A DNA stretch of 64,000 nucleotides from Petasospora fabianii. Lineage: Eukaryota > Ascomycota > Saccharomycetes > Phaffomycetales > Wickerhamomycetaceae. The notes beneath the pieces are model-generated. The model was not told the DNA's origin. It worked only from the letters and a program-made list of their open reading frames with translations, and ran no database searches. The DNA is taken from NCBI GenBank assembly GCA_022641835.1, contig CP048716.1, forward strand, positions 1 through 64,000, read 5' to 3'. Positions 5,632 to 60,121 of this stretch are shown one piece after another (the stretch's first letter is position 1; the number at the start of each line of letters is the position of its first letter). A program made the translations under genes and the position numbers.

Positions 5632-5909
5632 GGTGAATCACAGTCGAAAATGTGTCGTAGTGGATGAGAATCCGTGAGGTGCTTTGTTTGGGCAGGCTAT
5701 GAGGGAGCAGTCTCGGGATGCAAAGCAAGTAGAAAAGATATTTGTAGGCCTGAGTGAACGAGGATTCAAATGAATTGCGTATAAATGGGGTTGATCCGAC
5801 AGACAGGGGGTGCACAATGGGATATAAGGCCGCAGGGAGGCACTGCTATTGCCTCGTCGTGACTTTTTTTGAAACTGCCCCGGAGATCCTTGGCAGTGGT
5901 GTGGCTAGT

Positions 5910-5927
5910 CACGTGGTCTATCACGTG
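5910..5927. promoter_or_regulatory. Paired CACGTG E-box elements
   Basis: Two CACGTG hexamers, at 5910-5915 and 5922-5927, each preceded by T, lie 12 bases apart in the divergent promoter between the CYSTM and DUF2075 genes. In yeasts this site is bound by Cbf1, Pho4 or related bHLH proteins. Their presence also argues against starting the DUF2075 protein further upstream than about 6039. Confidence 0.55.
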
Positions 5928-6092
5928 TGTAATCGTAGTCCGGCGGAGGCCCTGGTGCGGGCACATCGCATCACCTTTAGCGGACTTAAGCTCACGTATC
6001 TCTCTTTCCAATTTGATCTTTTGTTGTTTCCTGAGCCAATGTTCCTTTGTCCAAGGTTACATAGAGCATCGTTAATCCATAGAGGTCTCAGA

Positions 6093-7481
6093 ATGTCGTC
6101 GTCAGCAGTTAAGAAAAGAGCATCTACTCGTCCAAAGGGACCTCAAGCACACAAGAGGCCAAACAACACTAATTTTGATCCATACAAACCGAGTGCTGCT
6201 GTGAACAAAATCTCTAATATTAATCTCTCTGATGAACAAACGATGCTCAAAGGGAAAATTTTGAACTTCATCAACGACAACCTTGAAACAAACAACTCGG
6301 GGAAGCCATCAGTTTTCGTGATCAACGGTGATGCAGGTACTGGAAAGAGTGCTATCATCAATGCTATTTTCAATGAGATTCAAAAAATCTCCAGAACCAC
6401 AACTGGCAACACTTTGTCTGGCACTTCAAACTTTCTTGTTGTCAATCACCCAGAGATGCTGAAACTTTACCATCAAATCTCTAAACAGTTCCCATACATC
6501 AACAAATCTGATTTGGAAAGACCAACGTCCTTGATCAACCGTTACGTTCATAAGAATCACAAGGCCGTATCACAGGAGGTTGATGTTCTCATCATTGATG
6601 AAGCTCATCTTTTGGCAACCTCAAAGGATGCTTTCAAACGATTTCAGCAAGACAATCACCTTGAGGAGCTGCTCAAGTTGTCCAAGGTTGTTATCATCGT
6701 GTTTGACGATAAGCAGTCACTACGTATGGGCTCATTCTGGAACTTTAACGGCGAGGATGGTGCTTCCCTCTCCGAATACCTCTCTTCTGATCATGTCAAT
6801 CACTATGAGCAGTACAACCTCACCAAGCAGTTCCGTGTTGTTGCCCAAGATGACCTTATCAAATGGATCACTGTTCTTTCAACCAAGAAGAGTATCCTTC
6901 CACTCCCGATCCGTGATGCCATTGACAACACTTTTGACTTCAAGATTTTCGAGAGTTGTCAGGAGATGTATAATCAGATAAAGCTGCAGAACACGCTGCA
7001 TGGTCAGTCCAGACTTCTTGCCACATATGACTTCCCTTACAGACTTGACGGTAAGGACTACTTTGTCTACTCTCAGAGTGACGACTTCAAGCTGAGATGG
7101 GATCGTTACCTTCCACAAATTACTACTCCATGGAGTGAGAGGGACGACACCATCGACGAAGTAGGATCAGTCTACACTATCCAAGGCTTTGACTTGAATT
7201 ACGCCGGTGTCATCTTAGGGAGATCCATCGGCTATAATAAGGAAACAGACACGATAGAGATCAAACCAGAGTTGTATGATGACCACGCTGGATTCACAAG
7301 GAAGAAGAACATCAAAAATGTGGATACCGTGAAGGAAAAAATTATTCTCAACTCGCTCAACGTGCTGCTTACAAGAGGTGTGAAGGGGTTATACTTGTTT
7401 ATATGGGACAATGAGCTCAGAGAGAGACTATTAAATGGTCCTGGATCCGATGAGAAGGTCATTGTGAGAAAGCAGTGGTAA
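6093..7481 (+). CDS. DUF2075 / Schlafen-group-3-like P-loop ATPase (putative helicase)
   Basis: The 462-aa protein has a basic N-terminal 25 residues, a Walker A motif GDAGTGKS (79-86), a Walker B motif VLIIDEAHLL (about 167-176), and the downstream SVYTIQGFDLNYAGVILGR and LNVLLTRGVKGLYLF motifs. These correspond to helicase motifs of the DUF2075 superfamily-1-like fold, common in bacteria and present in some fungi; S. cerevisiae has no clear copy that I know of. The cellular role is unknown. The chosen start has A at -3. An in-frame ATG at 6039 would add 18 residues (MFLCPRLHRASLIHRGLR), arginine-rich and without acidic residues, resembling a mitochondrial presequence. Its stop at 7479-7481 directly abuts the convergent acyltransferase stop. 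Family call is good, function is not assigned. Confidence 0.85.
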   Translation: MSSSAVKKRASTRPKGPQAHKRPNNTNFDPYKPSAAVNKISNINLSDEQTMLKGKILNFINDNLETNNSGKPSVFVINGDAGTGKSAIINAIFNEIQKISRTTTGNTLSGTSNFLVVNHPEMLKLYHQISKQFPYINKSDLERPTSLINRYVHKNHKAVSQEVDVLIIDEAHLLATSKDAFKRFQQDNHLEELLKLSKVVIIVFDDKQSLRMGSFWNFNGEDGASLSEYLSSDHVNHYEQYNLTKQFRVVAQDDLIKWITVLSTKKSILPLPIRDAIDNTFDFKIFESCQEMYNQIKLQNTLHGQSRLLATYDFPYRLDGKDYFVYSQSDDFKLRWDRYLPQITTPWSERDDTIDEVGSVYTIQGFDLNYAGVILGRSIGYNKETDTIEIKPELYDDHAGFTRKKNIKNVDTVKEKIILNSLNVLLTRGVKGLYLFIWDNELRERLLNGPGSDEKVIVRKQW

Positions 7482-36247: not shown

Positions 36248-37378
36248 ATGCTGCGAGTCAACGAAAGGTTCATAAAAATCTCAGTCTTTGCATTATTCAT
36301 ATTGGGGACCATCTCTGTTCTATCTCGATCGTCTGGTCCACAACTCAACTTTGACTCCACGAACGCAGCTACCACTGCCATTTCAAAGGGATTTTCATCT
36401 GACTACCAACGTGAGAATGCCACGTTTGTCTCGCTTGCCCGTAACGATGATCTTTGGGAGTTGGCAAATGCTGTTCGTTCCGCTGAGGACCGTTTCAACT
36501 TGAATTACCATTATGATTGGGTCTTCCTCAACGATGAGCCATTCTCTGATGAATTCAAGACCGTAATGACCCGTTTGGTGTCTGGTACTGCCAAATTTGG
36601 TGTCATTCCAAAAGAGCATTGGTCATACCCTGACTTTATTGACCAGCAAAAAGCTGCAGAGACGAGAACGAAGATGAAGAACATTATCTACGGTCCGAGT
36701 GAATCGTACCGTCATATGTGTCGTTATGAATCTGGATTCTTTTACAGACATCCACTGATGATGGAGTATAAGTACTACTGGCGTGTTGAACCAAGTATTA
36801 AGTTCCATTGTGATATCAGTTATGATGTATTCAAGTTCATGCGTGAGCAGAAGAAGGACTATGGTTTCACCATCACCATCCACGAGTTCCGTTCCACCAT
36901 TGAGACACTATGGGATACTACATTGGCATTTATGGAAAAGAACCCAGAGACTGTCCATCCAGATAACCTTCTAGCTTGGATCTCTGACGACAATGGTAAG
37001 AACTACAACCTTTGTCACTTCTGGTCCAACTTTGAGATTGGTAATATGGACTTTTGGCGTGGCGAGGCTTATTCCAAGTACTTTGATTTCCTCGACAAGG
37101 CTGGTGGCTTCTTCTACGAACGTTGGGGTGATGCTCCTGTTCATTCTATTGCTGCAGCCCTCTTCTTGCCAAAGGACAGAATCCACTACTTTGAAGAGAT
37201 TGGATATTACCACAATCCATATAACTCATGTCCCATTAACGACAAAGTGAGAATTGAGAACAACTGTGTCTGTGATCCGAATAACGACTTCACCTGGAAT
37301 GACTACAGTTGTACCAGACGTTACTTTGACGTCCGTGGTTTCGAGAAACCGGCTGGTTGGGAGAAGCACACCGGTTGA
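36248..37378 (+). CDS. Kre2/Ktr-type alpha-1,2-mannosyltransferase (GT15), copy A
   Basis: Golgi type II enzyme that extends O- and N-linked mannans from GDP-mannose. The 376-aa protein has a short cytoplasmic tail, one anchor (about 10-26), a short stem, and the GT15 catalytic domain: YDWVFLNDEPFSDEFK, YRHMCRYESGFFYRH, YYWRVEPSIKFHCDISYDVF (donor and Mn site), NNYNLCHF-type block NYNLCHFWSNFEIGNMDFWR with the catalytic glutamate region, and GGFFYERWGDAPVHSIAA. The stem is shorter than in Kre2/Mnt1. The nine S. cerevisiae paralogues cannot be separated by eye. It lies 940 bases from a second GT15 gene in convergent orientation. Confidence 0.94.
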   Translation: MLRVNERFIKISVFALFILGTISVLSRSSGPQLNFDSTNAATTAISKGFSSDYQRENATFVSLARNDDLWELANAVRSAEDRFNLNYHYDWVFLNDEPFSDEFKTVMTRLVSGTAKFGVIPKEHWSYPDFIDQQKAAETRTKMKNIIYGPSESYRHMCRYESGFFYRHPLMMEYKYYWRVEPSIKFHCDISYDVFKFMREQKKDYGFTITIHEFRSTIETLWDTTLAFMEKNPETVHPDNLLAWISDDNGKNYNLCHFWSNFEIGNMDFWRGEAYSKYFDFLDKAGGFFYERWGDAPVHSIAAALFLPKDRIHYFEEIGYYHNPYNSCPINDKVRIENNCVCDPNNDFTWNDYSCTRRYFDVRGFEKPAGWEKHTG

Positions 37379-38312: not shown

Positions 38313-39533
38313 TTAGTCAAAGTAATCTCCATTTCCTCTGTGCGACTCCCATCCATCTGGCTTCTTTTTCCCGGTGATTTCATAAAACTCGTTAACACAT
38401 GAGTACTCCCTGAATGTGACGTCATGTGCCTGATCACAAATGCATCTATTTTTAACCCACACTTCATCATTGATTGGACAACTGGTGGATGGAGTGTGGA
38501 AGTATCCAACATCATCGAAAAAATGGACATCGGACTTACTCATGAAGAGTGAAACAGCAATGGAATGTACTGGTGCGTCTCCCCAGCGCTCGTAGAAAAA
38601 GCCTCCAGTACTGTCAAGGAATTGGAAGAACGTCTCATATGCTGTGGAGCGGAAGAAGTTAAGGTCGGCAATCTCAAAGTTGGTCCAGAAGTGACACAAG
38701 TTGTAAGACTTTCCCTGGTCAAAGGAGATGAAAGGGAGGAGATTGTCTTGTGCAATGAACCTTGAATGCAATCCAATGAAATTCGAAACTGCCTTCCATA
38801 GGGTCTTAATCGTGTCTGGGAATTCATGAATGCTGACAGCAAAGCCATAGTGCTTATCGTTGCTCCTCATAAACTTGAAAACATCATAGTTGATATCACA
38901 CAGTAACTCTGTTCCTGGTTCCACTCTCCAACTATAGTCATATTGCTTCATTGCCTCCAATTTGTAGAAGAAACCTGAGAAGAAACGACACATGAGTCTA
39001 TAACTCTCCGATCCACCATACATCATCTCTCCCCTGGCACCACGTCTGGCAATCATTGCTTTCTTTTGATCTACCCAGTCAGGATACCCCCAGAACTCAT
39101 GAGGAATCTCCACAAATTTAACCTCACCAGATACCAATGCGGTCATCTGTCGTTTGAACTGATCTGAAAACGGTTCGTTGTTGGCAAATACCCATGGATA
39201 GTGGAACTTTCTGTTAAACCTATCCTCAAAGGATTGAACAGTTCTTGCAAGAGCAGCGACCTCCTTGTTCCGTGCGAGTGTGAAAAGCACTGCATTCTCC
39301 CGTTCATAACTTTGATTCACTTCTCCTCTGTATTCCACTTTGATACCTTGGTCATCACCAGTAGCAGGTTTCACCAACTCTGAATGTAGATCGTGCTGTT
39401 CCTTGTGAAGCTGTTCTTTCAACTCCAAGATCGCCTGATGCCTCTCCTTGGAGAAGGACCGATGTACGAAGACGTAAATCACGACAGCGAGTACCGCTGT
39501 GAATCGCAGCAGTCGTGTGTATCTCGTAGCCAT
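38313..39533 (-). CDS. Kre2/Ktr-type alpha-1,2-mannosyltransferase (GT15), copy B
   Basis: Second GT15 Golgi mannosyltransferase, 406 aa. It has a basic tail, an anchor at about 10-24 and a longer charged stem with coiled-coil character (KERHQAILELKEQLHKEQHD). The catalytic domain holds YPWVFANNEPFSDQFK, YRLMCRFFSGFFYK, YSWRVEPGTELLCDINYDVF, SYNLCHFWTNFEIADLNFFR and GGFFYERWGDAPVHSIAV. It is clearly homologous to copy A but well diverged, so this is an old duplication rather than a recent tandem copy. It ends 80 bases from the ZIM17 stop. Confidence 0.94.
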   Translation of the reverse strand: MATRYTRLLRFTAVLAVVIYVFVHRSFSKERHQAILELKEQLHKEQHDLHSELVKPATGDDQGIKVEYRGEVNQSYERENAVLFTLARNKEVAALARTVQSFEDRFNRKFHYPWVFANNEPFSDQFKRQMTALVSGEVKFVEIPHEFWGYPDWVDQKKAMIARRGARGEMMYGGSESYRLMCRFFSGFFYKLEAMKQYDYSWRVEPGTELLCDINYDVFKFMRSNDKHYGFAVSIHEFPDTIKTLWKAVSNFIGLHSRFIAQDNLLPFISFDQGKSYNLCHFWTNFEIADLNFFRSTAYETFFQFLDSTGGFFYERWGDAPVHSIAVSLFMSKSDVHFFDDVGYFHTPSTSCPINDEVWVKNRCICDQAHDVTFREYSCVNEFYEITGKKKPDGWESHRGNGDYFD

Positions 39534-40456: not shown

Positions 40457-41902
40457 ATGTTGTTCCGATTCCTTCTTGCCAGATTCGTGACCCTTCTTCT
40501 CCTTGCCGCCCCAGCAGCTGCCTTTACACACCCAATTGGCATCCATGGGCGCTACTTCATCGACACCGTTACTAGACAGCCGTTTTTCCTTAAGGGAATT
40601 GACTACCAGCCAGGTGGTTCCTCTGCAGTGACCGAAAGTATCGACCCTCTCTCAGACCCAAACACCTGTGCTAGAGATATCATCTTGTTCCAAGAGTTGA
40701 ACATCAACACAATCAGAGTCTACTCCATCAACCCAGATCTTGACCACGATGTCTGTATGAGTATGTTGGCCTCCGCTGGCATCTACCTTGTCTTGGACGT
40801 TAACTCACCACTCCAAGGGCAGCACATGAACAGATACGAGCCATGGACGTCCTATAATGAGGATTACCTCGAGCATGTCTTTAAGGCTATTGAGCAGTTC
40901 TCTGGCTACAACAATACATTGGGATTCTTTGCTGGTAACGAGATTGTGAATGATAAGAAGTCGGCACGCAATTCTCCTCCGTTTATAAAGAACTTGATCA
41001 AGGACATGAAGTTATACATAGATGCCCACAGTCCGAGATCCATTCCTGTTGGTTATTCGGCTGCCGATGACTTGAACTTTCGAGTCTCCTTGTCAAAATA
41101 CTTAGAGTGTACTGATGGCTCATTTGTTGACTCTGTTGACTTCTATGGTGTGAACACATACCAGTGGTGCGGAGAGCAGACCTTCTACACCAGTGGTTAC
41201 GATGCCTTGACACTGGACTACGAGGACTATGTCCGTCCTGTTTTCTTCTCTGAGTTTGGATGCAATGCCATTTCTCCACGTGTTTTTGAAGAGGTTTCCT
41301 CCATTTTTGGTGATGAGATGATTGGTGTCTTCAGTGGAGGCTTGGTCTATGAGTATTCTCAAGAACCTAACAACTATGGATTGGTAGAAATTGACGATAA
41401 GGGTGCAGTGAGGTTGATGAAGGACTTTGATTACTTGAAGGTTCAGTACACTTCCACTGAAATCCCAACAGGAGAACGTATCGCTGAGTTGTATAATCGC
41501 GGTGGTAAGGGCTTGAAGTTAGGTGCACAGGCGTTGCCAGAGTGTGAGGAGGAGTATGACAACTTAGAAATCACACTGATGGTCGATGACTCTATCAGCT
41601 CAAAACTTTTGAAGAACGGGGTTGATGCCAAAAGAGGAAGGTTTGTCACTATTGATGATAACGATCTTTACACCACATATCAAATTTACAACACAGACGG
41701 AACATCTTTTGATAGAAAGTACGTCCGTGTCACGCACCTGTTAGATGAAATTACGGAGTGCGAAGCCATCAGACTCAAACAATTGTCAAACGATAGTAAG
41801 TATCCTTGAAGATTCACCCGCCTCTCCAACAGCAATGATTTTAACCTCTTTTCAGAGTTCGAGGAAGACGGGGGCAGCAGTGATGATGATTGCAGCTATT
41901 AA
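40457..41902 (+). CDS. GAS4: GH72 beta-1,3-glucanosyltransferase, Gas4-like, probably with a 3' intron
   Basis: Cell-wall glucan elongating enzyme. It has a signal peptide (1-22), the GH72 domain with acid/base glutamate E162 (GNEIVND) and nucleophile E266 (VFFSEFGCN), and a C-terminal part without a Cys-box, as in Gas4 and Gas2. SADDLN-type, YQWCGEQT and GGLVYEYSQE blocks follow Gas4 closely. Read without splicing it stops at 41809 (450 aa). A GTAAGT donor at 41796 precedes that stop. Splicing to the CAG at 41853-41855 gives 461 aa with an acidic end (GGSSDDDCSY, stop 41900-41902). Splicing instead to the AAAAG at 41915 gives 470 aa ending in a hydrophobic GPI-type tail (stop 41987-41989). 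S. cerevisiae Gas4 is 471 aa with an acidic stretch then a GPI tail. Orthology to sporulation-type Gas4/Gas2 is likely; the 3' structure is inference. Confidence 0.9.
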
Positions 41903-42068
41903 CTAACATTAAAAGGTATAAAGATATCACACATGGCCGTCCTCAAAACGCTTTTGGTATCACTCTTCTTATGGCTTCCTATTATTTGAGCTCTAAGCTA
42001 AGTTATTGTCTCGTAGAATTATATGTTATAAGCATTATCATACATCATCATTATCATTAGTAGTATTA

Positions 42069-43511
42069 TCATGGTCTCTCGTTTCTTGTGAAGAGCACTG
42101 ACCCATCCTTATCCAATATTCTCACACTATTCGTTGAGGTGAAGCACGGCTGTAAGAGTTTGGTCCACTCATCTCTTGTTCTCCTTTGGTGGAGCTTGTA
42201 GTTCTTTAACATTATAAATTCCACTCTGTCAAAGTTTTGGAGCATAGCGAAGAACTTGAAGCCGTTGGTATTGACCAGATTACATTCTGGATTCTCCAAG
42301 TCTTCTGGGTCGACTGGAGTAATGTTCGTAAACGAGCAATTGACAAAAGACACTTTGTTCACTCGTGGTAACTTCTCCATAACCTCAACGAAATGGCCGT
42401 AATTCAGGTAGAACTTTGGCACGAACTTTGAGTTGAAGTATGCATAATTGGAGTTATTATTCTGTGTGTTGATTACCAGGGCCTCCGATGAATTGTACAA
42501 ACTGAAACACTTGGAGTTAAGATCGATGTAAAGAGTCTCAAGGTGTGGGAAACAATGGGCAAGGAGGAGGTCATAGTGAGATTTGAGGGACACGAGACGA
42601 AGCGAGCGAACTTCTCGGAAATATCCAGCGAGCAGCCTTGAACCGCTTGAGGCAATTGAGCAGGATGATAAGGTAAGTGACTGAATTGGAGACCAGCGAT
42701 TGTTTGATTCGAGTATGGCGGCATCCTTGGACACTAAGGGACCATTCTCGTTTGATAGTGTGAGAAGAGCTGGTTTTGTGAGGGAGTGGGAATCGATTAC
42801 CATGTCATAGAGAATTAGTTCATCTATAAGACCAAAAGGCCAGAGGAGATTAGGGCGAAGTGGGATGCTCCATCCAAATTCTGAAGACATGCGGAGACGA
42901 CGTAGTGTGGGGTAATAGTTGTGTTCAAGGGCATATGTCTTGAGTGTAGATGTCCATTCTGGGAACTGAAAACCTGGTGATATTTGACGAAGAGAGATTT
43001 CCGAGAGGTTGGGGAGAAGCGATACAACTTCTAGCAATAGTGTTATGTAGTTGTCCGATGGTGCATTGGGCTTGAAGTTGAAACCCACGATGGAAGTGGA
43101 CTCATGAGACAAATCTTTCTCAGGTTTGATAAAATCGATACTTTGAACATAGAGCTGTAGCATGTTCCGTTTCTTATCCTTGGATAAAGTCTTACGAAAG
43201 CGGGAGAGTGCCTCCTTGTTGTGTATCTTAACCTTGCGATAAAGGAAGAATCGATTCACGAAGTCGTTCATCTGGCGACATACAAGGACGAGAGCCAGAA
43301 AGTCATGGATGGTAAGATTGGCAATGATACGAGAGAGCACCTCATTGGGCAGGCCAAGAAGAGTCATTCTCTGGTCTACTGCAGCGTCTGTATCGTTGGT
43401 CAGGAGCTGCTGATGCTGCTCATTCTGCTGCTGATGCTGTTGTGACAGGCGGAGGTCATCGGCGGTCTTTGAAGAGCTTCTGAAACGGCTCTTCTTGAAG
43501 ATGCTGAACAT
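42069..43511 (-). CDS. F-box protein with leucine-rich C-terminal region
   Basis: A 480-aa probable SCF ubiquitin-ligase substrate receptor. An N-terminal basic and Q/H-rich segment (1-45) precedes the F-box LPNEVLSRIIANLTIHDFL then ALVLVCRQMNDFVNRFFLY (about 54-95), followed by irregular leucine-rich repeats (TLRRLRMS, IQSLTLSSCSIAS, VRSLRLVSLKSHYD, HLETLYIDLNSK). The overall plan recalls the uncharacterised S. cerevisiae F-box protein YDR306C (about 478 aa), but I could not confirm that. The start is the first ATG; the frame is open 25 codons upstream from a TTG. Confidence 0.87.
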   Translation of the reverse strand: MFSIFKKSRFRSSSKTADDLRLSQQHQQQNEQHQQLLTNDTDAAVDQRMTLLGLPNEVLSRIIANLTIHDFLALVLVCRQMNDFVNRFFLYRKVKIHNKEALSRFRKTLSKDKKRNMLQLYVQSIDFIKPEKDLSHESTSIVGFNFKPNAPSDNYITLLLEVVSLLPNLSEISLRQISPGFQFPEWTSTLKTYALEHNYYPTLRRLRMSSEFGWSIPLRPNLLWPFGLIDELILYDMVIDSHSLTKPALLTLSNENGPLVSKDAAILESNNRWSPIQSLTLSSCSIASSGSRLLAGYFREVRSLRLVSLKSHYDLLLAHCFPHLETLYIDLNSKCFSLYNSSEALVINTQNNNSNYAYFNSKFVPKFYLNYGHFVEVMEKLPRVNKVSFVNCSFTNITPVDPEDLENPECNLVNTNGFKFFAMLQNFDRVEFIMLKNYKLHQRRTRDEWTKLLQPCFTSTNSVRILDKDGSVLFTRNERP

Positions 43512-43813: not shown

Positions 43814-44512
43814 TTAGTAGACGTAACCCAAGATCTTACCAGAGACGTGCTTACGTCTAGCCTCCTCGTGGTCCATGATACCAGCAGAGGTGGTCAAGAT
43901 AACGTAACCAAACTGTCTAGCTGGGAGCAAGTTGTCAGTCCACTTCTCAATGTCACCAATTCTGACGTTGAATCTTGGAGAGATAACACCAACCTTGTTG
44001 AGACGGCCGTTAAGCTGAACAACAATCTTACCTGATCTGTGGTCGTCAATGTACTCGAACTCATCGATGTAACCTAAAAGAAAAAAGTTAGTACTCCATA
44101 AAGAGAACAAAATCTTTTGCTTCTCAAACACTAGAAACCCAAGCTCAAAAGATGTCAAGGAAAAGTAAACGACAGCGAGGACGAAAGAACAAAATGTTCC
44201 CTCGCAGACGTGTAAGAAGCATTTCCAGATTGTTCTTCCGGACACTTAAAAGACAGAGAGCGATTGCAACAACAATCCATCCAGTTATAAGCCCGGTGAA
44301 GGAAATAAACAAAAAAGCAGGGAATGAGAAAGGGTTTCATGTGAAGATGAGAAATTGTAAAAGGAACAAAAAAACATACCGTGCTTCTGGATAACCTGCA
44401 AGAACTTGACAATGACCTTGGAGGATGGTCTGATGATGACCTGTCTCTTACCGGTCTTCTCAGCGTTGTTGATAACGTTCAAGGCGTCAGCCAAAACAGA
44501 GGTTCTAGTCAT
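43814..44512 (-). CDS. RPS22: 40S ribosomal protein S22 (uS8), two coding exons
   Basis: Small-subunit protein uS8. Exon 1 is 44380-44512 and exon 2 is 43814-44073, joined inside the HGY codons across a 306-nt intron (donor GTATGT, branch TACTAAC at plus 44087-44093, acceptor TAG). The 130-aa product opens [20 protein letters not shown] and ends [14 protein letters not shown], nearly identical to S. cerevisiae Rps22. That intron encodes an H/ACA snoRNA, and a second intron lies in the 5' UTR directly before the ATG. This is the architecture of S. cerevisiae RPS22B. The gene is divergent from TTI1. Confidence 0.97.
44150..44305 (-). ncRNA. snR44: Intronic H/ACA snoRNA, snR44 counterpart
   Basis: Within the RPS22 coding intron the minus strand folds as hairpin, H box AGAACA (plus 44231-44236), second hairpin, and ACA followed by three bases (plus 44150-44155). 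The 5' hairpin has a CCGG/CCGG lower stem, an apical GATTG/CAATC stem, and a pocket whose arms are ATAACT (plus 44283-44288) and TTTAA (plus 44246-44250). These pair with the two sides of the conserved 18S stretch UUAAA-UC-AGUUAU, leaving U106 in the pocket, 14 bases ahead of the H box. The 3' hairpin has GGAAA/TTTCC and GCGAGG/CCTCGC stems. In S. cerevisiae, snR44 sits in the RPS22B intron and guides 18S pseudouridine 106 and one 25S site. The 5' boundary is approximate. Confidence 0.82.
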
Positions 44513-44857
44513 CTGGAAATAGGTGTTAGTATGCCTATGAGAGACTTGGCAAATTAAAGAGCAACATGAGTGTCCTCAAACAAAGTTGGGAGTCATGAGC
44601 AAAAGCTTTTAGGCAAAGGCCATAAAAGCTTGCTGAAGGGGGGTGTCAAGTCCCAAGTCAACGTAAAACTGGCCCATCAACAGATAGGAACCGAAAAAGT
44701 CTTACTCGTCAAACTTGCAGATACACTTGATTCCCACTTCAGATTTGGTCCATTCCTCAAAGAAAAGTAATCCCGTCGAATGTCCCCTTCCTGTGAAGGC
44801 AGCGAGACATTCGGTGCGAGAGAAAACCTGAAGCTCAATAACAGTCGGGGTACATAC
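44513..44857 (-). other. 5'UTR intron of RPS22
   Basis: Minus-strand donor GTATGT (plus 44852-44857), branch TACTAAC (plus 44525-44531) and acceptor CAG immediately before the ATG define a 345-nt intron. It contains a long hairpin with arms at 44598-44611 and 44623-44634 that can be extended outwards. S. cerevisiae RPS22B also has a 5'UTR intron carrying a stem-loop cut by RNase III (Rnt1). The loop here is not an obvious AGNN tetraloop, so Rnt1 cleavage is only a possibility. Confidence 0.8.
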
Positions 44858-45104: not shown

Positions 45105-48100
45105 ATGGCACCAGATGGTGACCGAAGAGTCTTCTCAGAGGTATGATGGACTAGATTGGTAATTTGATTGCGCTCGATTGACTAACACACACTCAAGATA
45201 AGGCCATATTGTGTGGCACTCTCCAAGCTAGCACTTGCCCCACCAGGGGTATTCAATCCTAATGGTCCAGAGGTATCGGCTGCCCTTCAAGATGTATATA
45301 CCCACTTTGAAAGTTCGATAACACCGACGACTGTTCTCTCCACCAACATTGCAGACTATATCTTCCTGCCTCTTTCACACCTTCTTAAACATCCAAAACT
45401 CGGGGACACACAGACCACATATCTTCTCCGCATCTTGACTCTACTCATCCGTCATTGTTGGTCCGAACCAAACACAATGCCCTATGTCATGGCTAAGCAG
45501 CTCTTTCCACTACTCACATTCCTCACAGGAGGTGCACCTAACCCAAAGGATAACACTGAGATCAATGCCAAGTCTGAAGAGTTAAAGCAGGCTGGATCTG
45601 CTGCTTTAGAAGCCATCTTCTCATCCCTTTCAGTTCAAAAGTCGGCGAAATTGTACGACTTCTTCAGTAATGTTGAGAACCTTCCTGCTCTAGGACATGG
45701 TGTTACGATCCTCTTGGAGTTTGCTTTAAATGGAAAATCTATTGAGCTGCAACTTCAAGCCCTGGAGGCTTTGAGAACGCTATACGTCGATGTGATTCAT
45801 GATGGTGAAATTATATCCTACATCCTTCCAGGTAATGTGTCCGTGTTAACCAAGGTAATTTCCATTACTGGATCCAAGACACATTACACAGTCATTGTGA
45901 AAGCTTTGAGTCTTTTGAGAACGATTCTAAAGATCGTATACAATGATGAAGAACTTGAAGTCAACATCAAGGAGGTTGAAGCAATTGAGGAGATTATTGA
46001 AGACCCAGAGCTGACACAGATCACAATCACTGAAGAAGGTTTCAAGAAGGTGCACAGAACTAATGCTTGGCTAAAAGCTACATCGTCCCAAGTGAAACTT
46101 GCGCTCGCTAACATCAAGAAGATCTACAGCCATTCAAAGTTTGAGGTGAGACAGGAGCTTGCCAACTTGGCGTCAATGATTGTCTCGCATTGTGTTCTGT
46201 CATTAAACAGTTCTGTGTCTGTTGCTGTGGACATCCTAGCCCACCTCTCCAATGATGGTTCTGTAATCGTCCCACGTGAGATCTTTGAACCAAAGGTTCC
46301 ACAACAAAAAGAGATTCTCGATAAGATTATCACAACAGAACTCGACACATACGTCAACACTTTCAACTCCGTAATCCAGTCGCCAAATGAAAAAAAGATT
46401 CTTTCCTCAATCAGTGCTATCAAATTCGCTGCTGCTCGCTCCCCAAACAGCTTTTTGCTCGATAAGCTTACAAAATCCTGTGTAATTGAACTCTCGGACT
46501 CACTCCGCCGGTCTCAGAAGAAGCCAAAGGTCATTTCCACATCCAATGATATGACGGAACTTATTCTTATTGCTGAGGATTCTTCTAAACTTCAGGTTGA
46601 TAACCACAAGCTCGCGGTATTTGATACCGTGATGACTCCACAAGTCCAACTTGCCCTCTCAGACCTTTTTCAATCTCTCGCACAGATCAAAGACCCGACA
46701 CAAGTTATTAATGAGCTTCTTTCAATGGAGGGCCAATCTTTGAACGAGCGCTCGATTATCTTGTGGATTGTCAACAATTTTATGCAAGGATACGTCTCGA
46801 AAGTGGCACCACATATTCTCTCTGCTGACTTTCTCACGTTTGATGATGATGACGACGACGATGAGCTTGTGCTTCTGCAGAAGCCAGAATTTGTCTACTC
46901 TATCCTGGACTACTCCAAGTCGCTCCTTGATGAGCTGTCTGAGATGGATCCAACAGAAGCTGTTGTTCAGGCTAACAGCATTGCCCTTGACACCATCGCT
47001 GTGGTGCAACAGTTGTTGAAAGAGGAGTTCCGGCCTGAGCTAATCGACTACCTCTATCCAGTTGTTGACTCACTGGCATCCCCTTCTGAGACAGTGAGAC
47101 AGCATGCTCTTAACACGAGTTTGGTCATCGCTGATGAACTGTATGGAGGATCGTTGGAAAGTATGATCATGGAAAACGCTGACTACCTGATCGATGCTAT
47201 TTCTGTTAGGTTGAGTAACGCCATGACAACGCGGTCTACTGCTATATTGGCTGTCTGTACAAAGATTGCCGGCTTTGAGATCATTGACACTTTCAAAGAC
47301 CTAATGGAGATCTTGTTCAGTTTGATTGATAACTACCATGGGTATGAAGATATCTGTATCGGCTTCTTTTTGTTGTTCGAAATCATCTCAGATGAGATCA
47401 GAAAGCAGTATATGAGTGATTATGGTATGGAGAAGATTGAGTCTTTTGAAAGCAGCTCTACCTATGCTCCATGGGGTCTGAAAAACATCAGGCAGCTTGT
47501 GGCTTTACTTGATAAGCGGAACAGAGATATAAGTGAGCTTGCTGCCACTCCACTTGAAGGTGACGTTGAAGACGAGATCAACAAGCCAGACAGTGATGAT
47601 GAGGACGATGTGTCCGGGGAGATCCCCGATGTTCACAAGGAGTGGACCTCACTTGTTCCCCAAGATGCATACAAGCTTCTCCAACAAATCACTTACTACG
47701 GTGAAAGACTCTTGACGCATCCTTCTATCAAGCTCAGATTACAAATTCTGAGAACGTACAACAAGATCATACCAATACTTGCTACTGCACCTGACAACTT
47801 GCTTCCAATCGTGGCCTCCATCTGGGCTGTCGTCGCCTCCATGGTCACTTCGCCAGATCCAAAGATCGTCCTTCCTGCCTCTGAAGTCCTGGAGAAAATG
47901 ATACTTTACAGTGGGAACTTTGTCATGAAACGCTTCCTGGATATGTGGGTCAATCTCCAGAAGAGTCCAATTCTGGTCAATGCTGTGAGGCAAAGCGCTC
48001 ATCAACAGAAGGTGGTACTCCCGGGCATAGAAATGAAGTGTTATAACTCTGTTGTTGCCATGCTGGTCACAGCTCTCAACACTATGGGCAGATCCATTTC

Positions 48101-49381: not shown

Positions 49382-50041
49382 TCAGATCAAGATTCCAACA
49401 ACTACTGTCCAGATGACGTTGACGAAGCAGTTGAAGGGGAAGATGTAAAACGTCGGAAGAAAGTTGAAGGAGACTATCGAACAGATGGGCCAGATCATGT
49501 AGCAGCTTAGAAGCATTCTCATAAATGTCTGCAGGATATGTTAGTATTGTTATAACAACGAGGAAACGTGGCTTGATCGACATACCGTTTTGAAGGCTGG
49601 AAGAATGTCCAAATTTTCCCAGATGCAGTTGTAGATGATGAAGATGGCTTGGAAGAAAGGTGAACCGATGCATTGATCCACGGCGACTCTCATGGACACA
49701 GCTGGAAAGTTGTAGACCAGATAGTCAATCCATAGGGATGAGATAACACCATTGACAGCACCCCATACGTAGAACTTCGCCAGCCTGTGGTAATTTACGT
49801 ATCTGTATAGTTGAATGACGGATTGTGCAAAACCTGCGGTGAACATGCCCATTAGGATCGAGTTGAGCATTTGATGTAAGCTGTCAATGTATTCTCTGTG
49901 GTGCATGAGGAAGATGATACATGCGAGTTCAAAGAACGTGATGAGCAGAATTGTTGACTTGGATCGGGCTTGTATGTCAACCTCGAGATTCTTTTCGATG
50001 TCCACCTTATGTGCCACGTCAAGGTTTGTCTTGGGCTTCAT
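49382..50041 (-). CDS. Mpv17/PMP22-family membrane protein, two exons
   Basis: A 200-aa small membrane protein. Exon 1 is 49586-50041 and exon 2 is 49382-49528, with a 57-nt intron (GTATGT donor, TACTAAC branch at plus 49540-49546, CAG acceptor). It has four hydrophobic segments and the family blocks KFYVWGAVNGVISSLWIDYL, MRVAVDQCIGSPFFQAIFI and, across the splice, LLSCYMIWPICSIVSFNFLP, where Mpv17 members read WxxWPxxQxxNFxxVP. The family includes Sym1 (mitochondrial inner membrane) and peroxisomal PMP22. The N-terminal 35 residues are hydrophilic and the family Q and N positions are partly altered, so it is a divergent member. Location and role are unknown. Confidence 0.85.
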
Positions 50042-54539: not shown

Positions 54540-57500
54540 GATGAGCTTCTGAGTTACGGAAAAGGATAGAGAGGGCGGATGCGTGAACTAGAATGGGGTT
54601 GAAGAGCCTAAGAGTGAAGAGCAAATAGTGGAGAAAGACACTGGTTAAGAGGGGTTTTTCATGGTTATATTTTTGTCCGAAATTGTGGAAGGTAGGACAC
54701 AAAACTCTAAGTTATGACGTGAGCTGCGATTTGATCCGAAAGTGGAACTAAACACGACAGTTCTTGACCAAGGCATTTTATAGCTCGTTTGGGAAATGAT
54801 ACATCACACTGTTTTTGGGAGCAAACACCTACAGCTATTTGCAGCAGGTTCTTCCTTCGTTGTATGTCATGTTGGACAAGCCCCGACAGATGATCACCTA
54901 ATTTAAATGCAGGACATGCTTCAAGAACTGAAATCGATATATCTTGTAAAGTGGACTTTGGTTAACCATCTGAAAGGTTAGTGCCGATGAGTGTGTATAT
55001 TTATGTAGTCGTGCCGGCCAAATCCGACCTACGATAACTTGAAAGCGGTCAAGGTTGACCGGCGTGAAAACCTGATGAGCCTTCAGATGTTTCAGGATGG
55101 CAATTTTCGGTAATAGGTACTCATGTGGCGCCTCAACAGCTTGCCAGATCAAAATATAGAAAAGTTAAAAGTTGACAGAGCGTCGGTGTGGAGTTAGTTA
55201 CAGCTATGGCTCTATACGGCTTTTTTCCCACTCGAACTCTCTGTTTCACCCCCCGATAGAGTACCTTACCACACATATCCCTTCGCTCATATCCGTCAGT
55301 GTCAGCTGGCATCCATTGCCGATTTCCATAAGGCAAAATGTCCGTCGGAAATGCAGACGTGCAGCACACGCTTACCCGCTTTGATTCTGTGGCATTTTTC
55401 TTACCACTGGTGAGTTAGACCAGTCGGTGGTTTCTCAGGCGACCCTTCAAACGCTAGAGGTGGGAGTCAAAAAAAAAAAAAAAATTAAAGCGGAAAGGCG
55501 ATGTAGCGAGAAAAGAAATTACTCAGCGCGTGCGAGGCCGCCCTGCTAGGGCTTTGCTTTGCATCGAGCAAATACTCTGGGGGCAGCCAAAAAACCAAAA
55601 CTAAAAAATAAGAGAAAAGGCGTTGTGCCGATGTGGCCTCATCGGAAACAGTCGGGCTGCTGAGTTACCGCTCGGTGCGTTTGGTTAAAGCATCATAAGC
55701 TACTTCACTATTAAATGGCGCGCGTTTACTCCGGCGCTGGCGGGCCTGAGGACACAGAATGCCTAATCGATGCTGAGGGCTCTCGGTGTTTCGGATTCTG
55801 AGGGCATGCCGTTGACCCTAAGAACGGCGGTAGGCTTTGATACCCTGGGCTCTTACGTGGTTTCTGACACCCTGTTCATCCTCGGTTTGCGACTCTATAG
55901 ACTGCTAGAGTGCTAGACTTCTCGCGTGCCTTCTTCCAGAAGGACGCACCGAAGGTTCGCCTTTGCCAGAGAGGGAGACCGGATGAGGCGAAAATAGCCT
56001 ATGAAGTCCATATATGAGCTGCACATAGGTGCGCTGGCGCGCCGTGTGCACCACTAAGAGGATCAGATCGGATCAATGCACCAAAAGCATTTACCTAAAC
56101 GCAGTACAGGCAGGCCCCGGGACTGTAAGTAATGAGAACAATTGTGTACTGCCCACAAAACTGCCATCGGCGCCTACCACCGTGTCTGCTATTCTTTTTT
56201 TTTTTGAGGTTTCTTGGTCCTTAGTCATGCGTCCAGGGGTGCCCATTGCTACATTCTTTTCATCTTTGCTGGCTAACAGATCATATCCTCTATCTTTATT
56301 ATGTAGAACACAGCGTCGGGCTGGCCAGAAGGGCCCAAACACCCTCTCCGAGTCACAGAAAGCACAAAGTCACTCATTCGTAATACCCCTTTAAACACTG
56401 GCTGTCGTCCATGGCGTCTTCTACGGTGCCCACCTCGAATACTACTCTGCGTTACGCCTCGACATGCATCCCTTCCAGTGCAATCCGCCTTTTTGTGAGC
56501 CTCGAGAGTTCAGAGGCTCTCAGGCGTTTTTGAAGCTTCTTGGAAGAAAAGGTAACAGGCACGATACACACTGAAACCTGCCTTCCTATTCAGGAAGTCA
56601 AACAGGACGCGTCATTGGATCTTGGACATGTTGGTGACTGTAAACTGTTATTGATCACACCACTAGCTTCTAAGAGTACAAGAAAACTCTAAACACAAAA
56701 GGGAATAATACTGTGTCTCCCCAACTTTAAGCCTAGCTCTTGCCCTTGATTGGCTCCTTTCTCTTTAGCACTGGCATTTGCCCCTCAAGGACATCGTTAT
56801 ATGGACTGATAGCGTGCGAGTTCCAATCTGGCAGCCCGCGTACACCCACTTGCCCAATTGGGTCAAAAGATAAGATTGTTTTTATCAGCCCAAGAGGTGG
56901 GCGTGAGAACCGCCCTGCCCAGCCTTTAGCAAAAGGGGGTGTTATACGATGATCCAGATGTGTTACATGAGCCGCAGGAGCTGTTTGCTTGTGATGTCTC
57001 AGTCAACAAAGACGTTTTCCGCCTGAGGCGTTTTCACCAATTGCAAAGCCTGAAAATTGTGTACAGCAGCCTCGGAGAACTTTTCGCGATACGCCCGAGA
57101 TCACATAGATCCGTTGAATAGGGTGCAGGATCTTGCATCCCCACAGGTCTACATCTTTAGCATGTGGCATAAGCGAGCGGAGGCGGGTTGTGGAGGGAAG
57201 GCACTTTAGCACAGGAGTGATTAGGGTGTGATTCGCTGTTATTGATATTTTTTCGTGATGTCAAGAACAGCGTCACTTAAATAGCTATGAACAAAAAGCA
57301 ATATATAACTCACTCTAAATACAATTACGAAACAATTGTAGCAATTTGCCTGCCTCGTAGCGAACACTACCCACCTCTCGAACTTTGAAAGACGAGGCCC
57401 TACATGCGCCTGATCTGCAGAGCTCGACGCGAAGGCGCATGCGGATCAGTTTCGAACAAGAGGCAAAAAAAGGAAGGCCTAACGGTCACAAACGGAGACA

Positions 57501-57704
57501 CATGCAGACGCGTCTAGCATAGAGAAGGTGGCTCTCCAGATTAGCTCTCGAGGTGAAACAATACTCCTTCGTGAGGTATATAATTACACGATGCCCCCGG
57601 TACTCTATCTCAAATCTATGTTTAACTATTATCATCACACAAACAGGTTCCTTTTCTGCTCGCTTCGCATTCACAAGCACTTCATTCACATCAACTTTAT
57701 CACA
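54540..57704. other. Gene-poor region, left part (3.2 kb)
   Basis: No supported gene. It includes an A15 run at about 55470 and a T11 run at about 56195. Open frames are short and overlap on both strands. A TATATAA box at 57577-57583 belongs to the small secreted-peptide gene downstream. The stretch could be an extended promoter, a centromere or replication element, or decayed sequence; nothing in it decides between these. Confidence 0.5.
57577..57583 (+). promoter_or_regulatory. TATA box of the small secreted-peptide gene
   Basis: TATATAA lies 122 bases before the ATG at 57705, a normal yeast distance. The leader between them becomes A/C/T-rich and G-poor, as in highly expressed genes. Confidence 0.6.
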
Positions 57705-57869
57705 ATGAACTTCTCTACTCTTCTGGCCCTCGTCACCACCGCCACTCTCGCCGTTGCTGCTGGCCCAATCGAGATCTATGTCACTCGGTACCACACTGTC
57801 GACTATATCCAGTATGTGACGGAGACTTCCACTCAGATCGTTCTCGAGACCCAGTACGTCTCTCTCTGA
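57705..57869 (+). CDS. Small secreted or cell-wall peptide, 54 aa
   Basis: The product starts MNFSTLLALVTTATLAVAA, a clear signal peptide with an A-x-A cleavage site, followed by about 35 residues rich in T, V, Y and I (GPIEIYVTRYHTVDYIQYVT and so on). That composition recalls the first mature residues of yeast mannoproteins, but there is no S/T-rich stalk or GPI signal. Promoter features (TATA box, CACA ATG context) and codon choice suggest real and possibly strong expression. It may be a stand-alone secreted peptide, or the 5' part of a longer gene: a GTACGT donor-like sequence occurs near its end (about 57855), but no good branch site follows. No family was recognised. Confidence 0.6.
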   Translation: MNFSTLLALVTTATLAVAAGPIEIYVTRYHTVDYIQYVTETSTQIVLETQYVSL

Positions 57870-59788
57870 TCACCCCTCCCAAAGGTTGAGTCTGGATGCT
57901 CGCCACAACTCTGCATATTTTCTCATGTTCTTGATTCGAACACTGTACGCTTACTATTTTTATGACTTCTTTATTCTGGGTTTTCTGTTTGTATGGCTTG
58001 GTATGGTTACAGTTATGATGTCACGGTTTGACATCCGGTTTTATTTATTACAGTTATGATCAATTGATAGATTTGTTCCTCCTCCTCTGTTAATTCATTT
58101 CCATTGTAGCTATTGTAATCTTAGCCTCTACCAGTGTTCGCACATTAGTGTTTGGGTGCTCACGAATCTCCGTGCGTAGAGGTGAGCTAAGGGTGTGTTG
58201 CTGCGACCGAGCCTTGAGGGCCTGGCCCGCGCGCCTTGAGATCATGATCAACACACAGGTGCTGTGGGAAAATGTACTCAATATTCTCACAGGGGCTGGG
58301 GGCAAATAACTGGCATAAGGGGCCAGATGGTGTCCATCACTGGGCTATTGTCACGATGAAACATGTCAGTTATATAAGGCGGTGCTACCGCTTAAGCTTA
58401 ACTTTAGAAAGACACTGTTAGTATCATGGTCTATAGGCACACCTATTATATATATTTTAGAAAGCCTAAAGCCGTGGGTTCTTTTGGTGAACATGCCACA
58501 AGCTGTATCTTTCCTTCGTGAACCGCGAGCCGTTACCTTGACCTCCCACCTCGAGCTGCCCACATCTCCTCGTCTATCAGCCTCCTGTTCGCCTGCACGC
58601 CTCGCCTCAAAGACACGCGTTTTGCCGCACCGACAAAAGAAATTAACAGGCACACTTTGCCCTTTAAAGCTCGTCTATGGCGTGCGTTACGGCCGCAGAA
58701 TGATTTACCCTTCTTTTGCAGCGCTCTATTCTTACCCCTCTGCCGCCTTGGTGACGTGGTACTGGCCGAAGATCGCACAGGGCGCTTCCGTGCGCTTTCG
58801 TCAACTTTTCGCGGTGTGTTAAAAAGATTGAGTCCTGGTTAGCGAGGATACTAGGGAAGTGTGGTGCGGCGAAAAAAATGCGTGTTATTCAAGTTGGGCA
58901 GCTTCGGACAGCACTAAAACTTTTTTTTTCTCGGAAGGTTGTGCGTTGGCCGGGGTTTAGTGCTCATAGAAAAAACAGGCGAGAGGTGGTGGGAAGTCCT
59001 GCATGGGATATGGTGTGGTGCTTGCAAAACTCTAGAGTTGAGCCGCGTAGTGTGCATTCGAGATTCGAAGAGTCCGCATACTCTATGGTATGGTGTGCAG
59101 GAGGAGGGAAAAGACGTTTTCTTCTGGAAGCCCTATCTGGAGTTGACCACGTTTCGAATCTTGAGAGAGTTATGCACAGGGGTTATTTTCTCCCCGCGTT
59201 TTGGACAATTGGGTCCACGACACGCCGCTAGCATGAGTAATAGGGTATACAGAAAGAGAATAAAGGACCACCTGCGAGGACTATAACACCCCTGTGTGTG
59301 GTATGATCTATTTCGTTGATTGTTATCTATCAGACCTTAACATATATCGAAGGCTCCGGCCCTTTTGCACAACTCCAAGAGAACCTGATTGGATCGATAT
59401 GGGTTCATGCGGTCTCATTAACTAAACGTAAAGCAAAGGCAATTCTTAGTGTGTGTATATATCTTAAGAAAATGTGAGATTTTAGGGGGCTCAACATCAA
59501 CAACTGAACCAGACCTTGAGGCAAAAATGGCAAGATAGTAAGATCGACAGAGGATTGGGGCTACTTTTCAGAGATCGGCCCTCCAACCCCATGATCCTCC
59601 GCCTTTCGCGGACAACCAATATTACTATGGTAACGCTGTAGCCGTTTCTGGGATGTGGTTCGTTAGCCTGATTTGATCATTATTGTCGTTGTGATATGAC
59701 AGGGTTCATTTGCGTGATCCTTTAGTCATTAAATTAAAGTATAAAAACACAACTTAAGCTGGCCAGCTCAAGAGATTACCCTTCTGAT
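57870..59788. other. Gene-poor region, right part (1.9 kb)
   Basis: Overlapping frames on both strands (58366-58842 and 58878-59286) have no protein-family features and differ in codon use from the real genes. A minus-strand TACTAAC at plus 58411-58417 has no matching donor. No supported gene. Confidence 0.45.
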
Positions 59789-59972
59789 ATGATGCAGGAT
59801 CCTGGTGAGTTTGCATGAGTCGCTTCTGGCCAGCGGTTCTGAAGGTGACCACCACTAACTGGCGTCTACTTTTCCGCAACTTTATTTTATAGCTGAAGAT
59901 CACCGGTCGATCGGGCACTGTTATAGAGGCATGGGTACCCTGTCATTGCTGTTTTACAGATACACTTTGTGA
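59789..59972 (+). CDS. Possible spliced micro-ORF (31 aa)
   Basis: An ATG at 59789 opens a 16-nt exon ending at a GTGAGT donor (59805). A CACTAAC branch-like site at 59852-59858 and a TTTATTTTATAG acceptor ending at 59892 follow, for an 88-nt intron. The joined frame continues to a TGA at 59970-59972 (31 aa, start MMQDPAEDHRS). TATAAAAA lies about 50 bases before the ATG. The signal set is like those of TUB2 and CYSTM here, but the peptide matches nothing I know. It could be a spliced non-coding RNA or chance. Confidence 0.3.
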
Positions 59973-60121
59973 TTAGGAGGTAAAACAAACCATCAACATA
60001 TTCGTAATTAGACTATTAGAAGAGAACCCCATCATGCGTTAACTATTAATGTCTCTGGAGTTCAGTTGGCCATCATCATTATCTTCTTCTTGTAACTCTC
60101 TATCTCCCTTACCAGTACCGC

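Follow-up and report, generated by a model that had tools for sequence, protein, structure and literature searches.

A probable 3′-terminal intron that would restore a GPI-like tail to a GH72 glucanosyltransferase gene of Petasospora fabianii

In the 64,000-nucleotide stretch of Petasospora fabianii DNA that we analyzed (hereafter the window), a beta-1,3-glucanosyltransferase gene of family GH72 probably contains one 120-nt spliceosomal intron near its 3′ end (GTAAGT...AAAAG, 41796–41915 on the forward strand), the removal of which would restore a GPI-like tail to the encoded protein. We call this gene GAS4-like, a presumptive name. Splicing of the intron, a GPI-signal function of the tail, and a role of the enzyme in the spore or cell wall are inferences from the DNA sequence. 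A first-pass annotation of the same DNA had proposed a GH72 gene of this kind in which one donor can be joined to either of two acceptors, the distal one giving the GPI-like tail. The gene, the likely intron, and the distal acceptor are supported by a Pfam match, by analysis of the reading frames, and by a rule for GPI-like ends.

The open reading frame call at this locus spans 40457–41809 on the forward strand and corresponds to an unspliced protein of 450 aa. Exon 1 (40457–41795, +) encodes an N-terminus that resembles a signal peptide by eye, followed by the GH72 (Gas/Phr/Gel-type) domain and a linker. The Pfam family Glyco_hydro_72 (PF03198) matches residues 20–334 over profile positions 5–313 of 314 with an E value of 2.3e-132, and the best PDB match is Saccharomyces cerevisiae Gas2 (2W61/2W62; E 1e-75, residues 24–335). 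In an alignment with Gas2, the two catalytic glutamates are conserved, each within the corresponding motif, AGNE (E162) and SEFGCN (E266), and because these residues are kept, the catalytic domain looks intact. The roles of the two GH72 glutamates are described in PMC5753161 (partial text). As judged from the domain match and from both glutamates, the predicted protein is a GH72 beta-1,3-glucanosyltransferase. No second Pfam family, X8/CBM43 included, matched the 450-aa protein at E values up to 0.001, and we therefore place the protein provisionally in the GH72- subfamily (Gas4/Gas5 type) as defined in PMC5753161 (partial text). In this respect it differs from Gas2, a GH72+ enzyme with a CBM43/X8 module (PMC5753161, partial text). 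A single-sequence AlphaFold model was discarded because its mean pLDDT was 32.7.

Rereading and recomputation showed the positions given in the first-pass annotation to be exact for the donor GTAAGT (41796–41801), the CAG acceptor ending at 41855, the AAAAG acceptor ending at 41915, the TAA at 41900–41902, the heptamer AACTAAC at 41901–41907, and the last TGA at 41987–41989. That annotation was silent on an earlier stop, the TGA at 41807–41809, which closes the unspliced frame after 450 codons. Use of the proximal acceptor would remove 60 nt and give a 461-aa protein ending in KFEEDGGSSDDDCSY, the translation of an acidic stretch (41856–41902, including the TAA) that is read only in this form. 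Use of the distal acceptor (AAG, 41913–41915) would remove 120 nt, and with them both in-frame stops (TGA 41807–41809 and TAA 41900–41902), so that a 470-aa protein ending in LSNDSIKISHMAVLKTLLVSLFLWLPII would terminate at the TGA at 41987. Exon 2 (41916–41989, +) then encodes the GPI-type tail (S)IKISHMAVLKTLLVSLFLWLPII and its stop codon. As had been proposed, the acceptors lie 60 nt apart and share one frame; the two introns are multiples of three in length, and the proximal, distal, and unspliced forms are therefore all read in that frame. Other pairings were set aside. The next AG (41923) shifts the frame and gives a 491-aa form without a GPI-like end, a donor at 41758 yields no GPI-like tail with either 41915 or 41923, and an intron running from a donor at 41719 up to 41915 would, at 197 nt, break the frame by its length.

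To judge the splice signals, we compared them with those of seven other introns in the window: two in TUB2, one in RFA2, two in RPS22, and one each in a SYM1/Mpv17-like gene and TTI1. They were found by scanning for a donor together with CTAAC, which biases the sample to CTAAC; the comparison therefore cannot tell how often other branch sites serve. Homology supports the junctions of four of them. The joined N-terminus of TUB2 aligns without gaps to residues 1–116 of beta-tubulin chains that we take to be yeast tubulin, and its Tubulin match grows from profile positions 97–189 with the open reading frame alone to 1–189. Across the join of RPS22 intron 2, the protein matches Ribosomal_S8 over residues 7–130. 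The joined SYM1/Mpv17-like protein gains Mpv17_PMP22 (E 1.7e-6, residues 145–195), a family that its unspliced frame did not match, nor did that frame match any other. The remaining three (RFA2, TTI1, and the RPS22 5′UTR intron) rest on motifs and on the need for a start codon. The RFA2 protein has identical families before and after joining, and its first residues appear to be those of RFA2. For TTI1, the match extends from profile positions 85–329 to 1–329 on joining, but most of this gain comes from the part of exon 2 that precedes the ATG and not from the junction. The RPS22 5′UTR intron is defined by motifs only.

The branch sites of these seven introns are TACTAAC in six and GACTAAC in TTI1. 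Distances from the end of the heptamer to the end of the AG are 10, 11, 17, 12, 13, 11, and 11 nt, the acceptors are CAG (three), TAG (two), and AAG (two), and the donors are GTATGT in three and GTACGT, GTGAGT, GTTAGT, and GTATGA in one each, with GTAAGT absent. Several of these introns have features of their own. In TUB2 intron 2 (2742–2892, +), whose junction is supported by the tubulin alignment, an AAG directly behind TACTAAC must be passed over and the TAG at 11 nt used instead, which illustrates within the window that branch site and acceptor need a minimum separation. Two introns in unrelated genes, SYM1/Mpv17-like (49529–49585, −) and TTI1 (45141–45197, +), share one geometry: each measures 57 nt, has its branch heptamer at offset 39, and leaves 11 nt from the heptamer to the AG end. 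Support for the TTI1 intron is weaker, and its branch site and donor would be GACTAAC and GTATGA. The RPS22 gene (43814–44857, −; Ribosomal_S8) has a probable 5′UTR intron and a second intron that contains snR44, an arrangement like that of S. cerevisiae RPS22B. Together with the yeast-like beta-tubulin and the TACTAAC introns, snR44 fits a budding-yeast host.

Upstream of the distal acceptor of the GH72 gene lies TATTAACTAAC, in which two branch-like heptamers overlap, TATTAAC (41897–41903) and AACTAAC (41901–41907), each one mismatch from TACTAAC. The first, absent from the first-pass annotation, has a distance of 12 nt to the distal AG end, within the 10–17 nt range of the comparison introns, and has its mismatch inside the ACTAAC core. 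The second ends 8 nt before the end of the AG, a shorter distance than in any of the seven. Counted as the nucleotides between heptamer and AG, the spacing for AACTAAC is 6 nt, which falls in the usual range of Debaryomyces hansenii and Eremothecium gossypii; 6–8 nt are found in 65% of D. hansenii introns (PMC2483917, partial text). Units with at most one mismatch followed by NAG at 7–17 nt number 50 on the two strands of the window, a count that includes the true introns and corresponds to 0.047 units per 120 nt. Although these two heptamers and the AAG ending shared with two of the seven comparison introns speak for the 120-nt intron, it lacks the TACTAAC consensus found in six of the seven, its donor is not among theirs, its AAAAG acceptor has no pyrimidine at −3, and the codon score of exon 2 is low. 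Introns of the Saccharomycetaceae are described as following a strict GTATGT/TACTAAC consensus (PMC4202332, partial text).

The TAA at 41900–41902 overlaps both heptamers. The first-pass annotation had placed the branch site of the distal acceptor over this stop codon, which our reading supports. It had also suggested that ribosomes might read through the TAA to produce an acidic stretch followed by the GPI tail, a scenario that we regard as extremely improbable. The same frame does run on into the tail, and the proximal form read on through the TAA with one placeholder residue passes our GPI rule. However, proximal splicing would have to precede readthrough, and among the stop codons UAA usually shows the least leakage. 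A TAA is part of the branch motif, and the motif may happen to lie in frame; an overlap of stop codon and branch site is therefore what one would expect of an intron, and readthrough is uncalled for. In-frame TAA codons arising from the branch motif are on record for introns of Yarrowia (PMC2911113, partial text), and with this precedent neither readthrough nor the recent nonsense mutation that had been offered as a simpler alternative is needed. The retained Yarrowia introns resemble the window gene in that the branch-motif TAA is in frame and, in unspliced mRNA, would end translation. They differ in that the Yarrowia stops are a genome-wide matter (PMC2911113, partial text), whereas here a single gene is concerned, in which the motif lies at the extreme 3′ end and the unspliced frame is closed earlier, by a TGA.

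The C-terminal ends were assessed with a GPI rule of our own (omega and omega+2 residues, a spacer, and a hydrophobic end). Among four unmodified forms, only the distal 470-aa protein passes, with NDS at the attachment region and a mean hydropathy of 2.19 over 16 residues. The rule is supportive rather than diagnostic, because 25 of 1906 open stretches in the window (at least 20 codons) also pass and because it is uncalibrated on known GPI proteins. These further passes, together with the open reading frame call of exactly 450 aa and the low codon score of exon 2, are what favor an unspliced 3′ end, in which the protein would simply stop at 41809 and the tail would be accidental. That reading is very unlikely, since the donor, the branch sites, the acceptor, the frame, and the hydrophobic tail would all have to be accidents. 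When we held 40457–41737 fixed and dinucleotide-shuffled 41738–42400, an intron (one of six donors, NACTAAC, and an AG at 7–17 nt) arose in 417 of 20,000 shuffles, and an intron together with a GPI-like tail in 4 of 20,000; because the rules were set after the candidate had been seen, these figures serve only as a guide. Codon scores of such short stretches did not separate coding from non-coding sequence. Exon 2 (41918–41986) scores low, with 2.7% of real coding stretches scoring as low and 35% of non-coding open stretches as high; the acidic stretch is intermediate with no clear coding signal (its score is not diagnostic), and the most coding-like piece, 41810–41854, is intronic in every spliced reading.

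The first-pass annotation had gone further and proposed that the locus switches a wall enzyme between secreted and anchored forms. Of this proposal, the distal acceptor that would supply the GPI-like tail is supported, and the proximal acceptor is weakly supported. The proximal unit (41839–41855, +) consists of the branch-like TTTTAAC (41839–41845), two mismatches from TACTAAC, and CTCTTTTCAG, which provides a pyrimidine run and ends in CAG at 41855 with a spacing of 10 nt. Because the CAG, the pyrimidine run, and the spacing are all good, this acceptor should not be dismissed, and the resulting 60-nt intron is close in length to the two 57-nt introns of the window. Units with at most two mismatches that keep the TAAC core and are followed by YAG are expected only 0.028 times in 60 nt. 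When the core is not required, however, units with up to two mismatches plus YAG occur at 0.26 per 120 nt in the window. We regard the proximal unit as weakly supported: it is possible on its motifs, but nothing requires it.

A switch between secreted (461 or 450 aa) and GPI-anchored (470 aa) forms, made by the choice between two 3′ splice sites or by regulated retention of the intron, draws on the shared frame of the two acceptors and on this proximal unit. It also has a fungal precedent in SKI7/HBS1 of ascomycetes, where one intron has been shown to be spliced to either of two 3′ acceptors, a conserved usage that yields two proteins (PMC3597508, partial text); the window gene likewise has two acceptors, but its proximal one is weak and a candidate only. 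The idea is weakly supported because the proximal acceptor pairs a good CAG with only TTTTAAC as a branch site, which is unlike any in the CTAAC-biased comparison sample. In addition, the acidic stretch carries no clear coding signal, and the RNA of 41780–41940 folds in an ordinary manner (z 0.48), with 131 of 200 shuffles reaching an equal or better fold. On balance, we consider such a switch unlikely. Also unlikely is its extended version, in which 3′ splice-site choice or intron retention switches the enzyme between secreted and GPI-anchored forms, the branch site doubles as the stop of the secreted form, and the missing GPI signal of Candida albicans PHR3 reflects the same unrecognized arrangement across the GAS4 clade. 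If the switch were real, splicing would here decide whether an enzyme is wall-bound or released, something rare in yeasts.

C. albicans PHR3 is a stated GAS4 orthologue in GH72 clade gamma and the sole family member with an intron, and its product has no identifiable GPI site (PMC5753161, partial text). Like the window gene, PHR3 encodes a GH72 protein without X8/CBM43 (PMC5753161, partial text), but the GAS4 orthology of the window gene is presumptive. Because PHR3 is reported to contain an intron, an intron in the GAS4/PHR3 clade has precedent, and as no GPI site is reported to be recognizable in Phr3, the clade may do without the anchor (PMC5753161, partial text). By this analogy the precedent may cut both ways, pointing either to loss of the GPI signal or to a GPI tail masked by an intron boundary. 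The former would correspond to a real proximal intron in the window gene with the anchor lost through the TAA, leaving a soluble or decaying GAS4-like protein comparable to Phr3. The length and spacing of the proximal intron fit this account, and the tail still passes the GPI rule when one placeholder residue replaces the stop. Nevertheless, we judge it quite improbable, as the proximal acceptor has a poor branch site, the GH72 domain is complete and retains its two catalytic glutamates, and the distal intron accounts for the same DNA without any mutation.

In the single 120-nt intron that we prefer, U1 would recognize GTAAGT at 41796–41801, U2 would pair within the overlapping branch region TATTAACTAAC, and the AG at 41915 would be used. 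Splicing would join LSND to SIKISHMAVLKTLLVSLFLWLPII with both in-frame stops removed, and because of this fusion the hydrophobic tail would be removed in the endoplasmic reticulum and a GPI anchor attached close to one of the residues N, D, or S in LSNDS, the sequence at the junction. In this reading the TAA belongs to the branch site, and an unspliced message would yield an unanchored 450-aa protein. If this single intron is real, annotation based on open reading frames would call a GPI-anchored enzyme unanchored, and the GPI site reported missing from C. albicans Phr3 could possibly be an annotation effect of an intron boundary. The literature searched, available in part, holds no description of a 3′-terminal intron ahead of the GPI tail of a GAS gene. 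Sequence searches found no yeast relative in viral contigs, genome contigs, or plasmids: viral contigs gave no related sequences, genome contigs gave no match to the protein query and two weak bacterial relatives (23–24% identity) to a two-row alignment, and plasmids gave one weak bacterial match.

Elsewhere in the window, two neighboring genes for KRE2/MNT1-type mannosyltransferases (Glyco_transf_15) lie on opposite strands near the GH72 gene, at 36248–37378 (+) and 38313–39533 (−). An interval of 5.6 kb flanked by PEBP-like and RasGEF genes (54540–60121) contains no ATG-initiated open reading frame of 150 aa, no Rfam match at E values up to 0.1, and no direct repeat of 20 nt; seven weak inverted pairs (71–81%) are present, and the interval is a candidate for a long regulatory, non-coding, or centromeric stretch. 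At 5817–7481 (+), this yeast encodes a protein that matches the Schlafen group 3 helicase domain (SLFN-g3_helicase) at an E value of 8.6e-106.
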